DNA of 34,045 nt, taken from NCBI GenBank assembly GCA_903858475.1, contig CAIOIZ010000087.1, positions 1-34,045 of the forward strand, read 5' to 3'. The translations under genes and the position numbers were made by a program. This DNA comes from an uncultured Bacteroidota bacterium (GTDB lineage Bacteria; Bacteroidota; Bacteroidia; Chitinophagales; Chitinophagaceae). Position 1 is the first letter of the stretch; every line of letters starts with the position of its first letter. Below the pieces are notes generated by a model. It was given only the letters and a program-made list of their open reading frames with translations, had not been told where the DNA came from and ran no database searches. Shown here in pieces: positions 7,958 to 34,045 of this stretch.

Positions 7958-7987
7958 TCAATTTATTGCGCCCTATACAAAATATTC

Positions 7988-8011
7988 AAAGACCCAATTC
8001 AACGGGTCTTT
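7988..8011 (+). terminator. Intrinsic terminator after the oxidoreductase gene
   Basis: AAAGACCC (7988-7995) and GGGTCTTT (8004-8011) form a perfect 8-base stem with an 8-base loop, followed by further T bases. It lies 31 bases after the stop codon and separates this unit from the gene run that begins at 8180. Confidence 0.8.
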
Positions 8012-8121
8012 TTTATTTGTTAAAGAAATAATAAAGCGATAAAAAACCTATTTTAAGCAAGGGGAAATCTAAAAACCGACGTCTAAGTAATAGTACAGTG
8101 TATTGGCTTAAACTTTTACTT

Positions 8122-8722: not shown

Positions 8723-8962
8723 ATGATTAAAAAGAACATTGCCACCAATGAGTTTGGATTTGTATTCAATCCCGCTACAGGCGATTCGTACAGCAGTAAT
8801 CCTGTTGCGGCAGAAATCATTCAATTAATGAAGGACAATCATTCATTGAATGAAATAAAAAAAATATTGCTCGATAAATATGAAGTAGACAAGCTGACCA
8901 TTGAAAAAGATGTAGAAGAATTTATGGGGCTACTGAAAGAAAATAATTTATTAAGCAATTAA
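8723..8962 (+). CDS. PqqD-like small protein (RRE / HPr-rel-A type)
   Basis: A 79-residue protein with the PqqD-like winged-helix pattern: FVFNPATGDSYSSNPVAAEII, where a residue stretch equivalent to the 'N.t...i' turn leads into LMKDNHSLNEIKKILLDKYEVD and the closing helix DVEEFMGLLKENNLL. In known systems PqqD-like domains bind a ribosomal precursor peptide and hand it to a modifying enzyme; the HPr-rel-A group has this shape but an unproven role. It starts 39 bases after the GNAT gene and ends 10 bases before the ATP-grasp gene, so the link to the ligase is tight. There is no radical SAM gene nearby and no visible precursor peptide. The fold call is fairly safe; the function is open. Confidence 0.75.
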   Translation: MIKKNIATNEFGFVFNPATGDSYSSNPVAAEIIQLMKDNHSLNEIKKILLDKYEVDKLTIEKDVEEFMGLLKENNLLSN

Positions 8963-8972
8963 AATTCAAACC

Positions 8973-10025
8973 ATGTCTGAAACTCAACGACCCATCGTAG
9001 TGGCATTAACCGGATTGAATGCTATTGATAGTCCAGGCCCTGGTGTAGCAGTAGCACGTGCGGTACGGGATGGATTGCAGCAGCCAGTTCGCATCATTGG
9101 ACTAGCCTATGAAAATTTGGAACCAGGTATTTATATGGATGGCATTTGTGATAAGACCTATCAAATATCTTATCCTGCAGCAGGCCCCGAAGTATTATAC
9201 AATGTCATTAAAGCAATTCATGAAAAAGAAAAGATTGATGTAATCATTCCAAATTTTGACGCAGAGCTATATAATTTCATCACAATTGCGCCGCGATTAA
9301 AAGCATTGGGAATAAATTCTTTTTTACCCAGCTTCGAAATGTTTGACGCAAGAGATAAATTAAATCTTTATGACTTTGGACAAAAACATGGATTGTTGGT
9401 GCCCAAGGATAAGGCTATTTATTCGATCAATGACCTGGTACAGTTAGGAGAAGATTTCGGCTATCCATTGGTGGTAAAAGGAAAATATTATGAAGCCGTG
9501 GTGGCTTACACTTTAGAACAGGCACAAAAAGCATTTTATAAAATCAGTGCTAAATGGGGACTGCCTATCATCGTGCAACAATTTATTGACGGCACTGAAG
9601 TAAATATTGCAGCATTGGGCGATGGAGAAGGCAATGCGACCAGTATTATTCCTATGAAAAAAATGTATATCACCGATAAAGGCAAGGCCTGGGCTGGTAT
9701 TACATTGGAAGATGAAGCCATGATTCAATTGGCGAAAAAATTTGTAGCTGTTACTAAATGGCGTGGTGGCTTTGAAGTAGAAATCATGAAGACGGCTAAG
9801 GACGAATTATACATCATGGAAATCAACCCTCGCTTTCCTGCCTGGATTTATTTATCGGCAGGTGCTGGACAAAATCAACCGGCTTCCTTGGTGAAAATGG
9901 CGATGGGTGAAAAAGTGCCAGCATTTACCAGCTATGATTCTGGAAAATTATTTATTCGCTATAGTTGGGATCTGATTGTAGATGTATCCCGCTTTCAGCA
10001 ATTCAGCGCCTTTGGCAGTTTATAA
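8973..10025 (+). CDS. ATP-grasp ligase (CarB-like fold), carboxylate-amine or peptide ligase
   Basis: A 350-residue cytosolic enzyme. The N-terminal Rossmann-like part opens PIVVALTGLNAIDSPGPGVA and ends near IIPNFDAELY. The ATP-grasp part follows: PLVVKGK with ATP-binding Lys169, the hinge VQQFIDGTE near 201-209, a basic loop KKMYITDKGKAW, and the Mg-binding strand MEINPRF with Glu283 and Asn285. All core residues of an active ligase are present. Family members form an amide or thioester from a carboxylate through an acyl phosphate. It lies 10 bases after the PqqD-like gene and 33 bases before the decarboxylase, so its product or substrate is probably an amino-acid derivative. A purine or carbamoyl-phosphate role is unlikely given the size and context. 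Confidence 0.82.
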   Translation: MSETQRPIVVALTGLNAIDSPGPGVAVARAVRDGLQQPVRIIGLAYENLEPGIYMDGICDKTYQISYPAAGPEVLYNVIKAIHEKEKIDVIIPNFDAELYNFITIAPRLKALGINSFLPSFEMFDARDKLNLYDFGQKHGLLVPKDKAIYSINDLVQLGEDFGYPLVVKGKYYEAVVAYTLEQAQKAFYKISAKWGLPIIVQQFIDGTEVNIAALGDGEGNATSIIPMKKMYITDKGKAWAGITLEDEAMIQLAKKFVAVTKWRGGFEVEIMKTAKDELYIMEINPRFPAWIYLSAGAGQNQPASLVKMAMGEKVPAFTSYDSGKLFIRYSWDLIVDVSRFQQFSAFGSL

Positions 10026-10058
10026 ACTCATATCACACTAATAATCTAGCATAACAAA

Positions 10059-11405
10059 ATGACAAAATTAAAATACGAGCGGCCCCTGATTAAAAAAATG
10101 AATGCGGGCATGATGAATAAATTTGGTGCGCAAAGTGAATTAACACCTGTTACCCATATTGATGGGGTTGCTGTAAAATCATTGATTCAGCAATATGGTA
10201 GTCCGGTTTTTGTGCTGAGCGAACAAAAAATGCGGCAGAATTATAAATCGGCTGTAAGGGCATTTAGTACCCGTTATCCTAAAGTGCAGTTTGCGTGGAG
10301 TTATAAAACACATTATAACAATGCCGTTTGCAATGTGTTTCATCAAGAGGGCAGCTGGGCAGAAGTGGTGAGTGGCTTTGAATATAAAAAAGCATTGGGC
10401 AATGGGGTGCCGGGTGCCAATATAATTTTTAATGGTCCTGATAAGCACCTAGATGAATTGCAATTGGCGATTGAAAATGATTCGCTGATACACATCGATC
10501 ATTTTGAGGAATTGTATTTACTCATTGACCTATGTGCACAGTTAGATAAAAAAGCGCGTGTAGCCATTCGCGTTAATATGGACACAGGCGTATATCCCAT
10601 GTGGGATCGCTTTGGATTTAATTATGAAAGCGGACAGGCTTGGCAGGCTATTAATAAGATTGTGGCTTCAGGTAAATTACAATTGGTAGGTTTGCATTCG
10701 CATATAGGCACCTACATGTTGAGTACAGCGGCTTATGGAATTGCAGCTGCTAAATTGAGCGACCTTGCTTTGAATTGCAAAAGTCAATTATCTACTACTA
10801 TCAAGTATATTGATTTAGGCGGTGGATTTCCCAGTGCCAATACATTAAAAGGAGCCATTGGCCAGGTGCCTACTCCAACAGTGGATGAATTTGCAGAAGC
10901 CATTACTACTACCATCTTAAATGCGGGCTTCAAAACAGAGGACTTGCCATTGTTGATTTTGGAAAGCGGTCGTGTATTGATTGATGATGCGGGTTATTTA
11001 TTGGGTTCGGTATTGGCTAATAAAAGATTGAGTGATGGCAGAAAAGCCACCATCATGGATTTTGGCGTCAACATCATGTTCACCTCTTTCTGGTACGATC
11101 ATAAAATTAGTCCAGCACAAGAAGTAAGTCAGTTCAATGAAGAGGCCGTAATGTATGGCCCTCTTTGCATGAATATAGATATTGTAAGAGAAAGCGTTAG
11201 TTTACCTTTGTTAAATAGGGGCGATCATGTGGTGGTACATAAAGTAGGTGCATATAATATGACTCAGTGGATGCAGTTTATTGCCATGCGCCCTAATATT
11301 GTATTGATAGATACCAATAATCAAACCCATGTAATACGTAAAGCAGAAACACTAGATTACTTGCAACAATTAGAACAGATACCCGACCACTTGCAAAAAA
11401 AATAA
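10059..11405 (+). CDS. PLP-dependent decarboxylase, LysA / ornithine-DAP decarboxylase family (fold III)
   Basis: A 448-residue enzyme of the alanine racemase-like barrel group that decarboxylates meso-diaminopimelate, ornithine, arginine or related amino acids. The PLP lysine is Lys83 in SYKTHYNN, where LysA usually has YAxKAN. HSHIGTYM, YIDLGGGFP and ESGRVLI line the cofactor site, and Cys370 in GPLCMNID is the active-site cysteine of the family. The C-terminal VHKVGAYNMTQWMQFIAMRP replaces the usual GAYxxxxxxxFN motif. The changed lysine loop and long N-terminal extension suggest a paralogue and not the housekeeping LysA. It follows the ATP-grasp gene by 33 bases, and the transporter-peptidase fusion starts within 4 bases of its stop, in the same frame. 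Substrate unknown. Confidence 0.82.
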   Translation: MTKLKYERPLIKKMNAGMMNKFGAQSELTPVTHIDGVAVKSLIQQYGSPVFVLSEQKMRQNYKSAVRAFSTRYPKVQFAWSYKTHYNNAVCNVFHQEGSWAEVVSGFEYKKALGNGVPGANIIFNGPDKHLDELQLAIENDSLIHIDHFEELYLLIDLCAQLDKKARVAIRVNMDTGVYPMWDRFGFNYESGQAWQAINKIVASGKLQLVGLHSHIGTYMLSTAAYGIAAAKLSDLALNCKSQLSTTIKYIDLGGGFPSANTLKGAIGQVPTPTVDEFAEAITTTILNAGFKTEDLPLLILESGRVLIDDAGYLLGSVLANKRLSDGRKATIMDFGVNIMFTSFWYDHKISPAQEVSQFNEEAVMYGPLCMNIDIVRESVSLPLLNRGDHVVVHKVGAYNMTQWMQFIAMRPNIVLIDTNNQTHVIRKAETLDYLQQLEQIPDHLQKK

Positions 11406-11408
11406 AAC

Positions 11409-13601
11409 ATTAAAAAGATAAAGCCCCACATATCAAGTTTTTTCAAAGGACTACTCAATAGTTATGGAGTATTGTTTTTTTCAAACAATACTTTATTTGC
11501 ATGGCTATTGCTGATTGTTTCATTTTTTAATCCTTACGCGGGTATCACTGGATTAATTGCTGTGATTATGGCTTTGTTATTAGCCAATTTTACCGGCTTG
11601 AATAAAGCAGATACTGCAAATGGCATTTATAGTTACAATGCATTGATTATTGGTATTGGCTTGGGAACGGTGTATCATTTTAGTGCTGCATTCTGGATTT
11701 TGTTACTCATTATAGTTATCTTCTCTGTTGTATTATCTGTGGTATTTCAACGGTTATTGGGCAAGTATGGTTTACCATTTCTCACCATTCCTTTCGTGCT
11801 ATGTTTTTGGTTGATATTATTGTTAACACAGGGCAACACAGCCATTGACTTTAGTTTCAGAAATATTTATTGGATCAATGATTTGTATGCGGTGGGTAAT
11901 TACCAGCTTGTGCGCTTTATCATGTTTATGGAAAACATTAAAATGCCTTCTTTGGTAAGTACTTTTTTTAGGGCAATGAGTTCCTTGTATTTTCAAAATA
12001 ATATATTGGCCGGCATGATTATTGCGGCCGGCATTTTTATTCATAGTCGCATTATTTTTTCTTTGATTGTTATAGGTTTTCTAACTGCCTATGGATTCAA
12101 TCAGGTGGTGATGGCGCATCCTGATGGCATGAATTATTATCTGATGGGGGGCAATTTTATTTTAGTTAGTGTAGCCATCGGAGGTTTTTTTACAGTACCC
12201 TCCAAACATTCATATTTATGGGCTATTATCAGTGTGCCTATTACCTTTTTGATTTTTATGGGAATGGGAAAAATTACTGGTCAGTGGAGCTTGCCGGTTT
12301 ACTCCATGCCATTTTCTATTACTGTGATTTGTATACTCTATTTCTTTACTTTAAAATCACAGATAGGAAGAGTGGTGCTTACGCCTTTACAATTTTATTC
12401 TCCCGAAAAAAATCTATATAGTTTTCTAAGTAATAAAGAACGCTTGATGAATGTCAACACCATTCGCTTGCAGCTCCCCTTTATTGGCGAATGGATGGTA
12501 TCGCAGGGATATGATGGCAATATTACCCATAAGGGAGAATGGAGTAAGGCATTGGATTTTATTATTGTTGACAATGAATTGAAAACCTATGAACAGTTTG
12601 GCGCCCATCCAGAAAATTTTTATTGCTATGGAAAGCCGGTATTAGCACCAGCAGATGGGTTGGTTCAATTTATTGAAGACTTTGTGGAGGACAATGAGAT
12701 TGGAAGAATCAATCAGGAAAAAAACTGGGGCAATAGTATTGTTATCAAACATGCAGAAGGGCTTTTTACAAAGATGAGTCACCTCAAAAAAAATTCTTTT
12801 AAAGTAAAAGCCGGTGATTATGTACGCCAGGGAGATATTGTTGCGGCCTGTGGTAATTCAGGTCGCTCACCAGAACCACATTTACATTTTCAAGTGCAAA
12901 CAACGCCGCATATCGGCAGTAAGACTTTTGCCTATCCCTTTTCCTATTTTATTTCTTCCAATCATGGGGTAGGTATAATTAGTGAATTTAGTGTGCCTGC
13001 TGAAACATTTATAGTATCTAATGTGGTAGCTGATCCTAGTCTACGCGCTGCTTTTGAATTTTTACCTGGTTATAACATGCAGGTAAAAGCAGCGGGTATG
13101 CCCGATGAGCATTGGGAGGTTTTTACCGATGCCTTTAATCAGTCCTATATTTATTGCCATATTACCAAGGCCTTTGCCTATTTTAAAAAAAATGAAGAGG
13201 TTTTTTATTTTACCGGCTTTGAGGGCAATCGCAATAGTTTATTGTACTATTTTTATTTGGCTGCTTATAAAATTTATTTGTCTACCACGCCAGCAGTAGT
13301 AGCACAAGATAAATTTCCTTTGCAATTGGGTAAGAATAATATCTTTAAATGGTTACAGGATATACTGGCTCCGTTTTATATTTTTAGTCGATTGCATTAT
13401 GAATCCATCAATAAAATAGTGTCGAACGATTTCTTGAATCCTGCAGTAGCAATAGAAAGTAAGCAAGTGCGACAGTTTATGTCGGTGCGTAGGCAAACCA
13501 ATCAATTTAGTATTGAAATAAAAAACAACCAAATCAATTCATTTAGTTTTATTAAAAATAACCAGGAAATAAAAGCCCTATGTATACCAAAAGAATATTA
13601 A
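11409..13601 (+). CDS. Urea-transporter domain fused to an M23 peptidase domain
   Basis: About 730 residues. The frame contains no ATG before well inside the first membrane domain; TTG at 11472 would cut into conserved sequence. An ATT at 11409, 3 bases after the upstream stop, would give MKKIKPHISSFFKG and is my preferred start. Residues of about 20-330 are a urea-transporter core with two repeats, each holding its signature: LPFLTIPF at about 122 and LPVYSMPF at 295. Residues of about 350-510 form an M23 (LytM-like) zinc peptidase domain: His374 and Asp383 in HKGEWSKALD, the strand GNSIVIKH, and HLH at 491-493. About 200 residues of unknown type follow. The gene overlaps the next by 22 bases. 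Canonical urea transporters place both ends in the cytoplasm, which is odd for a cell-wall peptidase. Confidence 0.82.
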   Translation: MKKIKPHISSFFKGLLNSYGVLFFSNNTLFAWLLLIVSFFNPYAGITGLIAVIMALLLANFTGLNKADTANGIYSYNALIIGIGLGTVYHFSAAFWILLLIIVIFSVVLSVVFQRLLGKYGLPFLTIPFVLCFWLILLLTQGNTAIDFSFRNIYWINDLYAVGNYQLVRFIMFMENIKMPSLVSTFFRAMSSLYFQNNILAGMIIAAGIFIHSRIIFSLIVIGFLTAYGFNQVVMAHPDGMNYYLMGGNFILVSVAIGGFFTVPSKHSYLWAIISVPITFLIFMGMGKITGQWSLPVYSMPFSITVICILYFFTLKSQIGRVVLTPLQFYSPEKNLYSFLSNKERLMNVNTIRLQLPFIGEWMVSQGYDGNITHKGEWSKALDFIIVDNELKTYEQFGAHPENFYCYGKPVLAPADGLVQFIEDFVEDNEIGRINQEKNWGNSIVIKHAEGLFTKMSHLKKNSFKVKAGDYVRQGDIVAACGNSGRSPEPHLHFQVQTTPHIGSKTFAYPFSYFISSNHGVGIISEFSVPAETFIVSNVVADPSLRAAFEFLPGYNMQVKAAGMPDEHWEVFTDAFNQSYIYCHITKAFAYFKKNEEVFYFTGFEGNRNSLLYYFYLAAYKIYLSTTPAVVAQDKFPLQLGKNNIFKWLQDILAPFYIFSRLHYESINKIVSNDFLNPAVAIESKQVRQFMSVRRQTNQFSIEIKNNQINSFSFIKNNQEIKALCIPKEY

Positions 13602-14749
13602 TTGCAATGATTGGCTGTCTGCTTTTTATACAGACCAATGCACAGGAAGTTGCCGCTATGGCAGCAGCCGATAACAAATCGCTGGCATTGTACAATGCGG
13701 CACAATGGAAGGAGTTGATGAAATTCGGCAAAGCTGAAATTGCCAAAGGGGTCGACTTTCCCATATTAAGAATGCGTACAGGTTATGCGGCATTTATGAT
13801 TGGTAATTTTAGTCAGAGTTTGCTGCAATACAAAAAAGTGTTGGATGGCGATGCTGAAAACGCTGTTGCACTATACTATGTGTACTTAAATAATCTTTAC
13901 CTGAATAATATCACACAGGCCAGGTATTATGCCGCTAAATTACCCGATGAAACAAAGGCGTCTGAGGCCCTCCGTGCAACAAAAATAGCAGGAGTGCAAT
14001 TGGAGTCCAGTTATAAAATACCGGGTGATTCCACTAGGAAAAATGGATTTTATATTCGAGCTGGCATCAATGTTCAATTGGGTTATCGCTTAGAATTGCA
14101 GCAATCGCTGGCTTCTTATAATCAGGATATTAGTGAACCCCGATTACTTTTAATAAGGGATAACCGCCATATAGCTATTCGACAAAATGAATATTATGGT
14201 AAATTGATTTATGCAGCTACTGGTTCTATTGCTTTATTGGGCGGCTATCATTATCTTAATACTCCCTTCAATAATATTATATATAAAAATTCCATTGGCT
14301 TTGCGGGTATTCAATATAATACGCCCTATGTACATTTGAAAGCCATGGCCAGTTTTGGAAAGGTAACCGATACTACTTATACGCAATATGATGGCACAGT
14401 AACAGTGTATCCATTGGGTAACACAAAATTGTATAATATTACCAGGGCTGCCTATGGCGATAATTTCACTTTATCGAATATCCTGGGCTATGGGATAACC
14501 AAAAAAATCTGGTTAGAAGGAAATATTACAGTAGGTAAATTTACCAGCTTATTGGAAAACGATGGACTTTATGTATTCAATGATATTGACCAAAAGCAAA
14601 TCAAGGCGGGTGGTAGCATTTATGCATTACTCGGCAAAAACTTGACGCTCACCTTGAATTATACTTTTGAGCAAAAATTAAAATATAAAACAACCAATAT
14701 TTATTTTTATCAACATTCATTAAACGGAGGATTATCATGGAAATTTTAA
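13580..14749 (+). CDS. TPR-plus-beta-barrel outer-membrane protein
   Basis: A 389-residue exported protein with a signal peptide (MYTKRILIAMIGCLLFIQTN, AQ). Residues of about 25-135 form TPR-like helices (LYNAAQWKELMKFGKAEIAK, LLQYKKVLDGDAENAVALYY). The rest consists of alternating strands rich in Tyr and Gly, as in YYGKLIYAATGSIALLGGYH, and the chain ends in GLSWKF with the terminal Phe typical of outer-membrane barrels. Its plan is like YaiO-type barrels, but I cannot assign it to a family. The start overlaps the preceding gene by 22 bases and has AGGAAAT about 10 bases upstream; its end overlaps the next gene by 13 bases. Both overlaps suggest translational coupling, so it probably works with its neighbours in the envelope. 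Confidence 0.75.
   Translation: MYTKRILIAMIGCLLFIQTNAQEVAAMAAADNKSLALYNAAQWKELMKFGKAEIAKGVDFPILRMRTGYAAFMIGNFSQSLLQYKKVLDGDAENAVALYYVYLNNLYLNNITQARYYAAKLPDETKASEALRATKIAGVQLESSYKIPGDSTRKNGFYIRAGINVQLGYRLELQQSLASYNQDISEPRLLLIRDNRHIAIRQNEYYGKLIYAATGSIALLGGYHYLNTPFNNIIYKNSIGFAGIQYNTPYVHLKAMASFGKVTDTTYTQYDGTVTVYPLGNTKLYNITRAAYGDNFTLSNILGYGITKKIWLEGNITVGKFTSLLENDGLYVFNDIDQKQIKAGGSIYALLGKNLTLTLNYTFEQKLKYKTTNIYFYQHSLNGGLSWKF
14726..14730 (+). promoter_or_regulatory. Strong Shine-Dalgarno site (GGAGG) for the TPR gene
   Basis: GGAGG ends 6 bases before the ATG at 14737 and sets this as the start over the internal ATG at 14758. Most other genes in the window have no such site. Confidence 0.7.
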
Positions 14750-15360
14750 GAAAAACTATGTTGGCCATTGGGGCCATTGTATGCTTTGGCATTACAGCTA
14801 ATGCACAAACAGCAGAGGATATTCAAAAGGCATTTAAGGCAAGCTATATCAACGAATACAAGACCAACTATTCGGGCGCTATTGCCGATTTGCAAAAAGT
14901 ATATAAGGCAGACAGCTATGAAAGCAACCTTCGACTGGGTTGGTTGCAGTATTTATCTAAGCAATACAGTAGTGCGATGGACTATTATCAAAAAGCCATT
15001 GACCTGAAAAAATTCAGTGTTGAAGCCAGGTTTGGTTATATCAAACCTGCTACGGAAGCAAAGCAGTATGTAAAAGTTTATGAGAAATACGAAGAGATAT
15101 TGAAGATTGATCCATATAACAGTTCAGCCAATTATTGGGTAGGTATTTCTTATTATGGAGTGAAGAAATATGATGTTGCTGCTAAGTATTTTGAATTGGT
15201 GCTGAATATGTATCCTTTCGATTACGATGCCAATCACATGTTGGCTTGGTCGTATTTAAATCAAGGAAGATCTGCTGATGCGAAAGTACTATTCAATCAG
15301 GCATTGATCATTAAACCCGGAGATGCTTCTGCCACCGAAGGTTTAGCAAAGTGTAAATAA
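14737..15360 (+). CDS. Periplasmic TPR protein
   Basis: A 207-residue exported protein with a signal peptide ending ITANAQ and at least four tetratricopeptide units, for example AIADLQKVYKADSYESNLRL, YYQKAIDLKKFSVEARFGYI and KYFELVLNMYPFDYDANHML. The start at 14737 is preceded at 14726-14730 by GGAGG, a full Shine-Dalgarno sequence at 6 bases spacing, which is uncommon in this phylum; it lies inside the last codons of the barrel gene. TPR proteins of this kind act as binding scaffolds. It is the last gene of the run and is followed by a strong terminator, so it probably partners the barrel or the M23 domain in the periplasm (inference). Confidence 0.82.
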   Translation: MEILRKTMLAIGAIVCFGITANAQTAEDIQKAFKASYINEYKTNYSGAIADLQKVYKADSYESNLRLGWLQYLSKQYSSAMDYYQKAIDLKKFSVEARFGYIKPATEAKQYVKVYEKYEEILKIDPYNSSANYWVGISYYGVKKYDVAAKYFELVLNMYPFDYDANHMLAWSYLNQGRSADAKVLFNQALIIKPGDASATEGLAKCK

Positions 15361-15376
15361 GAAATGGTAATCATAG

Positions 15377-15405
15377 AAAGGGCGATGCTATCAGCATCGC
15401 CCTTT
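15377..15405. terminator. Strong hairpin terminator between convergent genes
   Basis: AAAGGGCGATGCT (15377-15389) and AGCATCGCCCTTT (15393-15405) form a perfect 13-base stem with a 3-base loop, followed by more T bases on the plus strand. It ends the plus-strand run 8180-15360. It could also stop the convergent asd transcript, though the T tract on that side is poor. Confidence 0.88.
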
Positions 15406-15426
15406 TTTATTTAAGATCGTCTTTGA

Positions 15427-31374: not shown

Positions 31375-31968
31375 CTATCCTTTCCTTTCATTCCAGGTAG
31401 TATAATGTGCCGCTTGAATAGGGGGCATTTCCTGTATGCTTCGAAGTGGCTCACAAACTTTCCAATCCTCCATCATCTCTTTCGGTAATGCTTGGTAGAG
31501 TGCTGTTCCTTCTGCTTTCCAGTCTAGCATGGTATCTGTTACCTCTTTTATTTTTTTTGCGGGGTTGCCAACTAACAGTGATCTATGTTCGAAAACACTA
31601 TCTGCTTTTACAAAGCTCAGCGCGCCAACAATGCATTCATCTCCAATCACAACATTGTCCATGATTACGGCATTCATGCCAATCAAACTATTTTTTCCAA
31701 TGCTTGCCCCGTGTATGATGGCGCCGTGTCCTATATGTGCTCCGGCTTTCAACAAAACAGTAACGCCAGGAAACATATGGATGGTGCAATTTTCCTGTAC
31801 ATTACAACCATCTTCCAAAATAATTTGACCCCAATCGCCACGTAGTGCTGCACCTGGGCCGATATAACAATCCTTTCCAATAATCACATTGCCAGTTACC
31901 GCTGATTGCGGATGTACAAAAGAACTTGGGTCTACCACCGGTATATATCCTTTGAATTGGTAAATCAT
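31375..31968 (-). CDS. paaY: PaaY-like hexapeptide-repeat protein (gamma-carbonic anhydrase fold)
   Basis: A 197-residue trimeric left-handed beta-helix protein. Hexapeptide units run from about residue 20 to 135 (VTGNVIIGKDCYIGPGAALRG, GCNVQENCTIHMFPG, GAHIGHGAIIHGA, NSLIGMNAVIMDNVVIGDEC), with the His ligands of the gamma-carbonic anhydrase metal site in TIHMF, HIGHGAIIHG. The C-terminal tail YQALPKEMMEDWKVCEPL is typical of PaaY. In the phenylacetate pathway PaaY is a thioesterase that removes inhibitory CoA adducts. It is the last gene of the visible paa cluster. CaiE is a close alternative but the context favours PaaY. Confidence 0.88.
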   Translation of the reverse strand: MIYQFKGYIPVVDPSSFVHPQSAVTGNVIIGKDCYIGPGAALRGDWGQIILEDGCNVQENCTIHMFPGVTVLLKAGAHIGHGAIIHGASIGKNSLIGMNAVIMDNVVIGDECIVGALSFVKADSVFEHRSLLVGNPAKKIKEVTDTMLDWKAEGTALYQALPKEMMEDWKVCEPLRSIQEMPPIQAAHYTTWNERKG

Positions 31969-32006
31969 ATTAATAAAGATTGCTGCTATGAACTAATGCT
32001 ATATTG

Positions 32007-32420
32007 CTAGGCAATGAGCGGTTTGGTGGTACGATAACAAAGTCCCTTAAATTGTGCCACCAATTGCTTTGATTGATTGTAAATACCGATATGGTAGAGG
32101 CCAGTAGTTCGGCCATTGTGTATTTCTTCAGCAATAGCGGTTAGCTGATCGCCTACCGACACAGGTTTTATAAAATTGATGGAAGTATCTAAAGCTACAG
32201 ATAAAACATTGCGGTTATTACATGCAAAAGCGAATGCACTATCTGCCAATGAAAAAGCAATACCACCATGCACAATTCCAAAACCATTAACCATTTCGGG
32301 TCTCACCTTCATCTCTATTTTGCTAAAGCCTTCTTTAATGTCAATTATTGAAATACCCAACCATTGCGAAAACAAATCATTTTTCATCATGTGGTCGACC
32401 ACTTCGGCGGGACTATGCAT
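32007..32420 (-). CDS. paaI: PaaI-like hotdog-fold thioesterase
   Basis: A 137-residue cytosolic thioesterase. The hotdog core is seen in VNGFGIVHGGIAFSLADSAFAFACNN, where the HGG turn and the following acidic residue (Asp in SLADSA) form the active site, and in ALDTSINFIKPVSVGDQLTAIAEE. Its length fits the PaaI group. PaaI hydrolyses hydroxyphenylacetyl-CoA and related esters that would drain CoA during phenylacetate breakdown. It lies 38 bases before the paaY-like gene and 23 bases after the paaG-like gene on the same strand. Confidence 0.9.
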   Translation of the reverse strand: MHSPAEVVDHMMKNDLFSQWLGISIIDIKEGFSKIEMKVRPEMVNGFGIVHGGIAFSLADSAFAFACNNRNVLSVALDTSINFIKPVSVGDQLTAIAEEIHNGRTTGLYHIGIYNQSKQLVAQFKGLCYRTTKPLIA

Positions 32421-32443
32421 TGTTTGTTTTTTAAAATGATAAA

Positions 32444-33220
32444 TCAGTTGCCTTTAAAATGCGGTTTTCTCTTTTCCGTAAATGCTGCAATTCCTTCTGT
32501 ATAATCTTGGGTTTGGGCTGCTTTTTGCTGGTATTCGTCTTCCAATAGCAGTTGTTGTTCCCAGTCATTAGCAAATGAATGATTCAATGCATGTTTGGTA
32601 TACGCCAATCCCTTTGTTGGCATTTGCGAAAGATCCGATGCTATTTTTTTACTTTCTTCTTCAAATAAATCATCTACAATTACTTTATAAATCATGCCCA
32701 TTTTTTCAGCATCAAAAGCACTTAGCTTATCACCTGTTAGCATGAGTGCAGATGCTTTCTGCCAACCCACTAGGCGGGGAAGGGTAAAAGTGCCGCCGCT
32801 ATCGGGAATCAAGCCTATTTTACTGAAAGCCTGAATGAAACTTGCCGAAAGACTGGCAACCACGATATCGCAACACAAAGCGATATTGGCACCAGCGCCG
32901 GCCGCCACCCCATTAACAGCCGCTACTACCGGCTTGGGTAAATTTCTAATGCGTTTTACAATGGGATTATAATGCTCGCTTAAAATTTGCGCCATTGCTA
33001 TTGGGTGATCACCTACTAATTCTCCAATATCCTGGCCAGCACAAAATGCCTTTCCTGCGCCAGTGATATAAACGGCTCTTACTTCATGCAAGGATGCACA
33101 TTCGTCTAGCCTTGCCTGTAAGTTAAGCGCCATTTCACGGTTAAAGGAATTAAATTTCTCGGGCCTATTCAAAGTGATAAAAGCGACCCCATTTCTGATT
33201 TCGAATAATATGGATGACAT
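32444..33220 (-). CDS. paaG: Enoyl-CoA hydratase/isomerase of the phenylacetate pathway (PaaG/PaaB-like)
   Basis: A 258-residue crotonase-fold enzyme. The ATG at 33220 gives MSSILFEIRNGVAFITLNRP, the usual N-terminus; an upstream TTG at 33241 falls inside a promoter element and is rejected. The oxyanion-hole motifs are AFCAGQDIGEL and AVNGVAAGAGANIALCCDI, and the active-site acid lies in IPDSGGTFTLPR. PaaG turns ring-1,2-epoxyphenylacetyl-CoA into the oxepin, while PaaF hydrates enoyl-CoA esters; the Asp in PDSGG fits PaaG. It follows paaD after a 110-base gap that holds its own promoter. Other crotonases are possible but the setting makes PaaG likely. Confidence 0.85.
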   Translation of the reverse strand: MSSILFEIRNGVAFITLNRPEKFNSFNREMALNLQARLDECASLHEVRAVYITGAGKAFCAGQDIGELVGDHPIAMAQILSEHYNPIVKRIRNLPKPVVAAVNGVAAGAGANIALCCDIVVASLSASFIQAFSKIGLIPDSGGTFTLPRLVGWQKASALMLTGDKLSAFDAEKMGMIYKVIVDDLFEEESKKIASDLSQMPTKGLAYTKHALNHSFANDWEQQLLLEDEYQQKAAQTQDYTEGIAAFTEKRKPHFKGN

Positions 33221-33238
33221 AACAACAGATTTACTCTT

Positions 33239-33269
33239 CAAAGATATTGGGTATTTGGGTTACAAACAA
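33239..33269 (-). promoter_or_regulatory. Bacteroidota-type promoter inside the paa cluster, before paaG
   Basis: On the minus strand TTG (plus 33267-33269), a 20-base spacer and TATCTTTG (plus 33239-33246) match the -33/-7 consensus. It lies 18 bases upstream of the paaG ATG at 33220. Confidence 0.65.
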
Positions 33270-33330
33270 TGGCCATGAATAGGTAAAAGATAACAACTGA
33301 AGAGATGCAAGATTCCCTTATAAAATTGCA

Positions 33331-33831
33331 TTAGTGACATTTAAAATAATCGAAGGGCTCCAAACATTCATTGCATTGATAGAGCGCCTTGCAGGCGGTG
33401 CTGCCAAACTCACTGATTAGTCGGGTATTATGCGCATTGCATTGCGGACATTCAACGCCATCGGCAGGGATACTGAATTTTTTATCTGGGGCAGCAATAC
33501 CATAGGTTTTTAATTTTTCTTTACCCGCTGCTGTCATCCAATCGGTGGTCCAGGCTGGTGATAAAACTTGTTCAATGCGTATATCAGTATAGCCATTTTC
33601 TAATAGGGCTAATCGAATTTCCATGTTAATCATATCCACCGCGGGACAACCATTGTATGTTGGGGTGATGCCAATAGTGACAGTAGGGTTGTCTAAATTG
33701 CGTGTATTCGATAACGTTATGCTTCTGATGATGCCCAAATCCATTATACTCAATACGGGTATTTCGGGATCAGAAATCTTTTCGAGTACCTGCCTTATTT
33801 TATTTTCTTCAGTTTCCATGGAATTTACCAT
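33331..33831 (-). CDS. paaD: Phenylacetyl-CoA epoxidase subunit PaaD (PaaJ), iron-sulfur assembly-like
   Basis: About 166 residues. PaaD is needed for activity of the PaaABCE ring 1,2-epoxidase, probably in maturation of its metal site. The N-terminal MIP18/DUF59-like domain is seen in VLEKISDPEIPVLSIMDLG and GITPTYNGCPAVDMINMEI. The C-terminal zinc ribbon has CPQCN, STACKALYQCNEC and ends EPFDYFKCH, as usual. The ATG at 33831 overlaps the paaC stop (ATGGTAA), which suggests translational coupling; an ATG at 33819 is an alternative. It is followed by the paaG-like gene after 110 bases. Confidence 0.93.
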   Translation of the reverse strand: MVNSMETEENKIRQVLEKISDPEIPVLSIMDLGIIRSITLSNTRNLDNPTVTIGITPTYNGCPAVDMINMEIRLALLENGYTDIRIEQVLSPAWTTDWMTAAGKEKLKTYGIAAPDKKFSIPADGVECPQCNAHNTRLISEFGSTACKALYQCNECLEPFDYFKCH

Positions 33832-34045
33832 TCGCAATTGGGATAAGTTCTTTGCATGTATTGCAGATCGGTGAGTATGAAACCCAGGTGTTCGGTATGT
33901 GTACCAGTTTTACCACCTGTTTGAAAATAGGTGTTTTCAGGAATGGGTATCCTTGCTTCAGCTAACAGTAGTTGTAACTTGGCTAACCAGTTTTCATTTA
34001 AAGCTTTAAAATCAATACCACTAATCAATTCGTATGGGGTAGCTA
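33825..34045 (-). CDS. paaC: Phenylacetyl-CoA epoxidase subunit PaaC, C-terminal part (gene runs off the window)
   Basis: Only about the last 73 codons are visible; the frame stays open to the window edge, so the start lies beyond 34045. PaaC is the structural partner of the di-iron subunit PaaA in the epoxidase. The visible part reads ATPYELISGIDFKALNEN at its upstream end, then LLAEARIPIPENTYFQTGGK, and ends with the conserved tail GTHTEHLGFILTDLQYMQRT, YPNCEW. It overlaps paaD by 7 bases. The TTG at 34028 is not the start. Confidence 0.9.
   Translation of the reverse strand, partial: ATPYELISGIDFKALNENWLAKLQLLLAEARIPIPENTYFQTGGKTGTHTEHLGFILTDLQYMQRTYPNCEW

Follow-up and report, generated by a model that had tools for sequence, protein, structure and literature searches.

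The 34,045-nucleotide stretch of DNA analysed here (hereafter the window; contig CAIOIZ010000087.1 of assembly GCA_903858475.1, from an uncultured Chitinophagaceae bacterium) carries a run of seven plus-strand genes. They encode a GNAT acetyltransferase, a small PqqD-like protein of the type that recognises ribosomally synthesised and post-translationally modified peptides (RiPPs), an ATP-grasp ligase, a fold-III pyridoxal phosphate (PLP) decarboxylase (DC), a fusion of a urea-transporter domain to an M23 peptidase domain (UT-M23), a putative outer-membrane barrel protein and a tetratricopeptide repeat (TPR) protein. We found that this gene run is one real system, and its gene order recurs across the phylum. 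Judged from the sequences, one cassette enzyme, the DC, bears a docking tag like those that normally sit on the peptides modified by such recognition systems. In the interpretation that we favour, to which we give about an even chance, the genes form a conserved cassette whose RiPP-type recognition protein works for an enzyme rather than for a free precursor peptide, with a coupled ligation and decarboxylation joined to an envelope part. The probable function of the cassette is to make a small molecule and to handle it.

Gene order was compared in three sets of loci. A search for UT-M23 covered 198 genomes from the class to which the window belongs, and 53 wide loci were clustered together with the window (54 class-level loci). 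A second set, overlapping in part with the first, consisted of the best 80 loci of a longer list from named genomes; that list held at least 583 confirmed stretches, possibly including other decarboxylases, and thus gives no carrier count. The third comprised 20 loci from the 28 DC carriers outside the window's class. By clustering, the class-level loci contained UT-M23 (52), TPR (49), barrel (46), DC (45), ATP-grasp (44) and PqqD (39) families, and the next commonest family, an AraC-like regulator recognised by eye, was present in only 11. A more sensitive comparison recovered the order PqqD, ATP-grasp, DC, UT-M23 in 44 of the 54 loci including the window, and all six genes stood in order in 34. 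The ten remaining loci were seven with UT-M23 but no adjoining synthetic half, one with UT alone (L072), one with an M23-only protein (L082) and one whose contig begins inside the DC gene (L031). The same order was present in 76 of the 80 named loci, three of the others being cut by a contig end within the ATP-grasp gene and the fourth (L106) having a DC without the two upstream genes. All 20 other-class loci showed it as well; TPR was present in 17 of them and the barrel in three. Because the gene order recurs across the phylum, the run is more than a chance arrangement. A sequence-only reading had proposed a single system and had set scattered homologues and a gene order unique to the window as the outcome that would refute it; the comparison gave the opposite result.

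Co-occurrence across whole genomes led to the same conclusion. DC (E ≤ 1e-60) and PqqD (E < 1e-25) were detected in an identical set of 50 of the 198 class genomes. UT-M23 matched over most of its length in 54 genomes, with an additional fragment at a contig end in G098; 49 of the 50 genomes with DC and PqqD also had UT-M23, and the fiftieth was G098 with its fragment. In three genomes (G026, G151 and G042; loci L072, L037 and L074) the DC lay on another contig and at least 8 kb around UT-M23 contained no DC, so that the co-occurrence is not explained by linkage alone. The PqqD and ATP-grasp reading frames overlapped in 24 of 38 adjacent pairs, as counted with mechanical start calls, and are 10 bases apart in the window. 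In a phylum-wide sample, DC was present in 34 of 395 genomes, 28 of them outside the window's class. Its distribution is patchy, since the one further member of the window's genus in that sample had no DC. Cultured genera among the named loci include Pedobacter, Mucilaginibacter and Hymenobacter. No DC match was obtained at 1e-80 in a plasmid collection. A role in anti-phage defence was considered and dropped when PADLOC models gave no match at 0.001 for six of the proteins (the GNAT was not included).

Some loci differed in their surroundings. The AraC-type regulator, a protein of about 200 residues with an HMA-like N-terminal stretch (by eye), occurred in 11 class-level loci (for example L046, L047, L049, L051 and L055) and stood mostly upstream of PqqD where present. 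In L056-L058 the cassette was flanked by response regulators and a hybrid histidine kinase. Five loci (L060, L062, L066, L067 and L077) had UT-M23, TPR and barrel genes in that order without adjoining PqqD, ATP-grasp or DC genes, and a second TPR match then followed in three of the five. Cassette genes were broken or split in L053 (G187), L081 (G057) and L179 (G201), namely a DC present as two pieces, a UT-M23 divided between two open frames and a UT giving two tblastn pieces.

Membership of the GNAT depended on lineage. From the 53 class-level loci alone the GNAT appeared to be an outsider, a view overturned when 153 loci were checked: a homologue (50-81% identity) lay directly upstream of PqqD on the same strand in 21 of the 80 named loci, including the window's seven nearest relatives (L084-L090). 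No homologue was detected at E ≤ 1e-4 in either the class-level set (53 loci) or the other-class set (20 loci). The GNAT therefore belongs to the cassette within a limited lineage, and its earlier inclusion in the run stands for the window's lineage (0 of 73 other loci).

The evidence for a docking tag comes from the PqqD-like protein and the N-terminus of the DC. In a search of solved structures, the best matches of the PqqD family profile were the RiPP recognition elements (RREs) of lasso-peptide systems, TbiB1 (2.2e-11) and TfuB1 (4.8e-7). By sequence, the PqqD-like protein is a relative of this lasso RRE (B1) family rather than a member. Lasso RREs are known to recognise a YxxP motif (PMC12710340). 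We examined DC tails in two sets: 115 distinct class-level and named sequences, of which 113 had an intact N-terminus and were not selected for Lys, and 20 other-class tails that were picked with Lys at +15, a choice at which none failed. The pattern [YF]xxPx[ILV] with Lys at +15 was present in all 133 intact tails (113 of 113 and 20 of 20). The first residue was Tyr in 112 of 113 and 17 of 20 tails and Phe otherwise; Pro at +3 was invariant in both sets, and Gly at +17 was found in 113 of 113 and 19 of 20. The distance from the Tyr to the enzyme body was 41 residues in 109 of the 110 first-set tails in which it was measurable, and 41 in 17 and 43 in three of the other-class tails. Conservation fell sharply past +17 in the other classes, while several later positions were also conserved in the first set.

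The tail matches lasso precursors not only in motif but also in register. In lasso precursors the motif runs from -17 to -12, the recognised residue lies at -2, and the core begins with Gly (PMC10368454). The DC tail places Tyr at -17, Pro at -14, Ile, Leu or Val at -12 and Gly at +1, with Lys replacing Thr at -2; the Gly match taken alone could be chance, Gly being conserved at two of about 25 tail positions. Lasso RREs help to form the pocket for residue -2 of the leader (PMC10368454). Position 21 of the PqqD-like protein, which adjoins the column occupied by Tyr in TbiB1 and TfuB1, is Asp or Glu in 117 of 120 sequences; the mapping of FusE Tyr33 onto PqqD Ser22 is uncertain. A profile of the tail searched over the 198 genomes matched only DC N-termini, one each in 49 genomes, and no stand-alone copy; the fiftieth DC carrier (G042) has only a DC fragment. 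The sequence-only reading had seen no precursor peptide and concluded that this is not a standard RiPP locus. The conclusion holds, but the reading overlooked the leader-like sequence, of the sort that a PqqD-type protein would bind, at the DC N-terminus. The tail was unaligned in the two best solved relatives of the DC. In a monomer model its confidence was low (pLDDT about 52), which decides nothing because several loops of the body (263-268, 340-345, 370-379 and 402-408) were equally low.

The DC and the ligase suggest what the coupled chemistry could be. Against solved structures, the DC profile scored highest with N-citrylornithine decarboxylase (7kh2, 253 bits), ahead of diaminopimelate (DAP) decarboxylase (194); BtrK was matched as well (121). 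The window's DC reached neither the LysA cutoff (TIGR01048, 217.6 of 297.9 bits) nor that of FslC (NF041039, 212.3 of 500 bits). Among 124 sequences, C370-M371 was invariant and K83 was present in all except one, which has a gap there. FigC likewise has Met beside its catalytic Cys, at the position where free-amine decarboxylases carry an acidic residue that binds the free side-chain amine (PMC7857480). The solved DAP decarboxylase 1twi has Glu beside the Cys where the DC has Met. The position of FigC His357 is Ile in 124 of 124 sequences (Ile373 in the window). Judging from the Cys-Met pair and this Ile, the substrate is probably a conjugate that lacks a free side-chain amine and is not a citryl compound. 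In the ATP-grasp ligase, K169, E209, E270, E283, N285 and R287 were present in 124 of 124 sequences; we presume that these six residues have their usual ATP-grasp roles. The nearest solved chains of the ligase are distant.

We propose the following sequence of events. The PqqD-like protein would bind the lasso-leader-like tail of the DC, and this docking would couple the DC to the ATP-grasp ligase encoded by the adjacent gene. The ligase may join an amino acid to an amine or a carboxylate, and the DC would then remove the alpha-carboxyl of the conjugate to yield a small amide-linked amine. The GNAT of the window's lineage, which would fit an amine product, may acetylate it. UT-M23 and the TPR protein, together with the barrel protein in the window's class, could form a membrane and periplasmic part that passes on the product or acts with it, the direction and target being conjectural. 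The order of ligation before decarboxylation is that of FigA/FigC and, reportedly, of BtrJ/BtrK. The earlier reading suggested a small amino-acid or peptide-like product; a small amino-acid-derived product is plausible because the nearest relative of the DC acts on a conjugated amino acid and has the same Cys-Met signature.

Several observations weigh against this proposal. The window's PqqD-like protein falls far below the curated lasso cutoffs (29.6 of 70 bits for NF033530 and 28.5 of 80 bits for NF033536). The RRE-like hits reported by RRE-Finder include helix-turn-helix proteins and others unconnected with RiPPs (PMC7470986), and the BsfA lasso system largely tolerated replacement of the motif's Tyr, Pro and Leu by Ala (PMC10368454). 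When the co-evolution of the tail was analysed in 124 loci with control segments, the partial correlation was 0.25 with ATP-grasp (rank 6 of 58) and 0.13 with PqqD (rank 15 of 58), no stronger than for several segments of the DC body; values from 38 loci (0.22 for PqqD, 0.35 for ATP-grasp and -0.03 for UT) proved unremarkable in the larger set and are not counted as support. Five genomes outside the 50 gave weaker matches to the PqqD profile (E 5e-11 to 6e-5). UT-M23 occurred without DC in 5 of 54 genomes, and the synthetic and envelope halves are therefore separable. Finally, L106 has a tailed DC with neither PqqD nor ATP-grasp upstream, as far as the locus extends. There (L106:5229-8075) the DC follows a DnaA-like reading frame (by eye), and the contig ends just past it.

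The tail itself can be explained in other ways. It could be a structural or regulatory extension that has nothing to do with PqqD, for which its near-fixed length and wide conservation would serve equally well, as expected of a dimer or gating element. RRE-like folds also occur outside RiPP systems (PMC7470986), and the tail co-evolved no more strongly than several body segments. The motif, however, is of the type bound by the very RRE group that is nearest to the PqqD-like protein, and we regard this explanation as rather unlikely. A bolder possibility, which we judge quite unlikely, is that the tail works as an arm that carries the amino acid covalently: PqqD would present Lys21 (position -2 in lasso numbering) to the ATP-grasp ligase, which would load an amino acid on the side-chain amine, and the arm would then swing into the DC active site for decarboxylation and later release. 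The Lys found in all 133 tails, of which 113 were taken without regard to it, speaks for such an arm, as do the drop in conservation past +17, clearest in the other classes, and the near-constant spacing of 41 residues to the body (109 of 110 and 17 of 20 tails). The DC relatives BtrK and MccE act on carrier-bound or peptide-linked amino acids (PMC7857480). The Lys may nevertheless be a mere recognition contact, given the Asp or Glu at PqqD position 21 (117 of 120) and the contribution of lasso RREs to the -2 pocket, and no earlier example of such a carrier on an enzyme came to light. If the arm were real, the DC tail would be ribosomal leader and carrier in one, and the cassette a RiPP-like pathway that has no free precursor and feeds an envelope transporter-hydrolase. 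Least probable of the three, and very unlikely in our estimation, is an ordinary RiPP cluster whose precursor was overlooked and whose DC tail is incidental. ATP-grasp enzymes are among those that mark the RiPP neighbourhoods of RRE proteins (PMC12710340). When reading frames of at least 45 residues from the class-level loci were clustered, though, PqqD was the sole small family among those listed, and the tail profile matched DC N-termini only (49 of 198 genomes), although a precursor of another sequence would escape that profile.

The envelope half was examined through UT-M23. Its model was confident (pLDDT 88), and Foldseek recovered both the UT and the M23 fold; no identification of the C-terminal domain was obtained among the 50 Foldseek rows listed. 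In the M23 domain, H374, D383 and H458 were present in 52 of 52 sequences and H491 and H493 (HxH) in 51 of 52; we take H374, D383 and the HxH pair to be the metal site, which is kept. The UT domain scored 173.4 bits with Pfam UT (cutoff 25) and did not reach the yut-type cutoff TIGR03441 (116.1 of 274.6 bits). All 52 members had Ala, Gly or Ser at the residue aligned with the Glu of the dvUT sequence GEVMFQ, and the two signature Thr residues were replaced by Ser in 51 and 43 of 52. A second pore position, Gln or Glu in urea transporters, was Gln in 18 of 23 aligned members and Val in the window. The altered positions presumably bind urea in canonical transporters. Charge counts lean towards both termini of UT-M23 lying inside, which would place M23 in the cytoplasm. 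One stand-alone relative begins with a signal-peptide-like stretch and looks secreted.

These features bear on two further explanations. A urea-uptake operon feeding ureolysis would fit the clear membership of UT in the urea-transporter fold and the one pore position that is still Gln in most aligned members (Val in the window). The other pore and signature positions are changed in most or all sequences, however, and urease alpha was found in only 3 of 198 genomes, a single one of them (G188) among the 54 UT-M23 carriers; other urea-hydrolysing enzymes were not searched for. We consider this explanation extremely improbable. It is more conceivable, if still doubtful, that peptidoglycan work is the main job, with UT-M23, TPR and barrel proteins forming a wall hydrolase complex and the synthetic half making an amine with a tuning or protective role. 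The M23 fold was found and its metal-site residues are kept, one stand-alone relative has a signal-peptide-like start, and five of the 54 genomes have UT-M23 without DC. The charge counts point the other way by favouring a cytoplasmic M23 domain, and this evidence is weak in both directions.

The coordinates of the cassette are given in Table 1. All seven plus-strand reading frames reported by the sequence-only reading were found at the stated positions, and Pfam recognised every protein except the barrel protein. Successive genes are separated by 39, 10, 33 and 3 bases (the last counted from the ATT at 11409), followed by overlaps of 22 and 13 bases. The hairpins that had been proposed to bound the run, at 7988-8011 and 15377-15405, lie in regions that fold far below shuffled sequences: -11.8 kcal/mol (z -4.2) for 7980-8020 and -23.4 kcal/mol (z -6.2) for 15366-15415. 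A separate hairpin scan picked up only the latter region. In a promoter pattern scan, promoter-like sites were fewer than in shuffles. The name 'barrel' is a reading of the sequence only, because a Pfam search gave no match at E ≤ 1.

Table 1. Features of the cassette in the window
Feature	Position	Strand	Basis
GNAT acetyltransferase, 167 aa	8180..8683	+	Acetyltransf_3 3.9e-25; under all NCBIfam cutoffs; lineage-limited member
PqqD-like RRE-type protein, 79 aa	8723..8962	+	PqqD PF05402 1.9e-13
ATP-grasp ligase, 350 aa, distantly CPSase-like	8973..10025	+	ATP-grasp_3 PF02655 1.5e-10; under every NCBIfam cutoff
Fold-III PLP decarboxylase (DC), 448 aa, nearest N-citrylornithine decarboxylase	10059..11405	+	Orn_Arg_deC_N 4.1e-29
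Leader-like N-terminal tail of DC, residues 1-23	10059..10127	+	YERPLI 10074-10091; K21-F22-G23 10119-10127
UT-M23 fusion, 730 aa from probable ATT start	11409..13601	+	UT PF03253 8e-51; Peptidase_M23 PF01551 2.7e-18
UT-M23 domains	UT ~11448-12341; M23 ~12528-12899	+	then a C-terminal domain without family assignment
Putative outer-membrane barrel protein, 389 aa	13580..14749	+	signal-peptide-like N-terminus by eye; no Pfam match at E ≤ 1
TPR protein, 207 aa	14737..15360	+	TPR families (Pfam); signal-peptide-like N-terminus by eye
Terminator-like hairpin 3′ of the TPR gene	15375..15407	+	-23.4 kcal/mol, z -6.2 vs shuffles

The start of UT-M23 required separate consideration. No ATG, GTG or TTG start preserves the conserved N-terminus; the TTG listed at 11472 corresponds to residue 22, and starting there would lose the invariant Y19 and the nearly invariant S18. 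Because no ordinary start codon retains the conserved first helix, the ATT at 11409 is the likely start. The gene is in the DC's frame and follows directly after the DC stop (11403-11474), where the available starts are either near-cognate or lose the N-terminus, and this junction varies among close relatives. Elsewhere in the window, a minus-strand gene run at 31375-34043 resembles phenylacetate degradation, as judged by eye from short N-terminal stretches.

Comparison with known systems showed where the cassette departs from each. It shares with lasso systems the nearest relatives of its PqqD-like protein and the register of the leader, but carries that 'leader' on an enzyme and has Lys instead of Thr at -2. 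Neither a lasso B2 leader peptidase nor an Asn-synthetase-like cyclase was among the Pfam and NCBIfam matches of the window's seven proteins, and no other family was common in the loci. With the rhizoferrin enzymes FigA/FigC (FslA/FslC) the cassette has in common a DC nearest to FigC/FslC and the Met beside the catalytic Cys. It differs in its ligase, an ATP-grasp enzyme where FigA is an NIS (nonribosomal-peptide-synthetase-independent siderophore) synthetase, in the replacement of FigC His357 by Ile373, in a tail that does not align with FigC and in a score under the FslC cutoff. In FigA/FigC, ligation comes first and decarboxylation follows; BtrK is a fold-III decarboxylase that acts on a carrier-bound amino acid (PMC7857480). 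The DC profile matched BtrK as well, more weakly than FigC (121 vs 253 bits), and no acyl carrier protein was identified by Pfam or NCBIfam among the cassette proteins. BtrJ is reportedly the ATP-grasp partner of BtrK in butirosin synthesis. Urea transporters such as dvUT and UT-B share the fold and family of the UT domain, which in the cassette is fused to M23 and a further domain, has changed pore residues and co-occurs with urease in a single carrier. Graspetides and other ATP-grasp RiPPs also centre on an ATP-grasp ligase, but no precursor peptide was found for the cassette. Decarboxylase, urea and M23 are absent from the available text of a graspetide survey (PMC8939145).

The cassette lacks features that define RiPP, lasso, LysA, FslC and urease-linked systems. 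No description of the gene set was found, among the matches listed, in a literature search that covered mainly open-licence articles, in agreement with the earlier statement that no described pathway with this set is known. Iyer and co-workers reportedly surveyed the operons of amidoligase ATP-grasp enzymes in 2009, and that work may mention parts of it. The novelty lies in the system as a whole; apart from the barrel protein, every part falls into a known superfamily. The established clients of RiPP recognition proteins are precursor peptides. Structure-based mining judges RREs by the known RiPP enzymes nearby (PMC12710340). An RRE whose only leader found is on an enzyme, and which is kept across classes of the phylum, would widen the known roles of RREs and give a rule by which further cases could be searched for. 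It would also provide, in cultured genera, a defined pathway for families that include the urea-transporter/M23 fusion.

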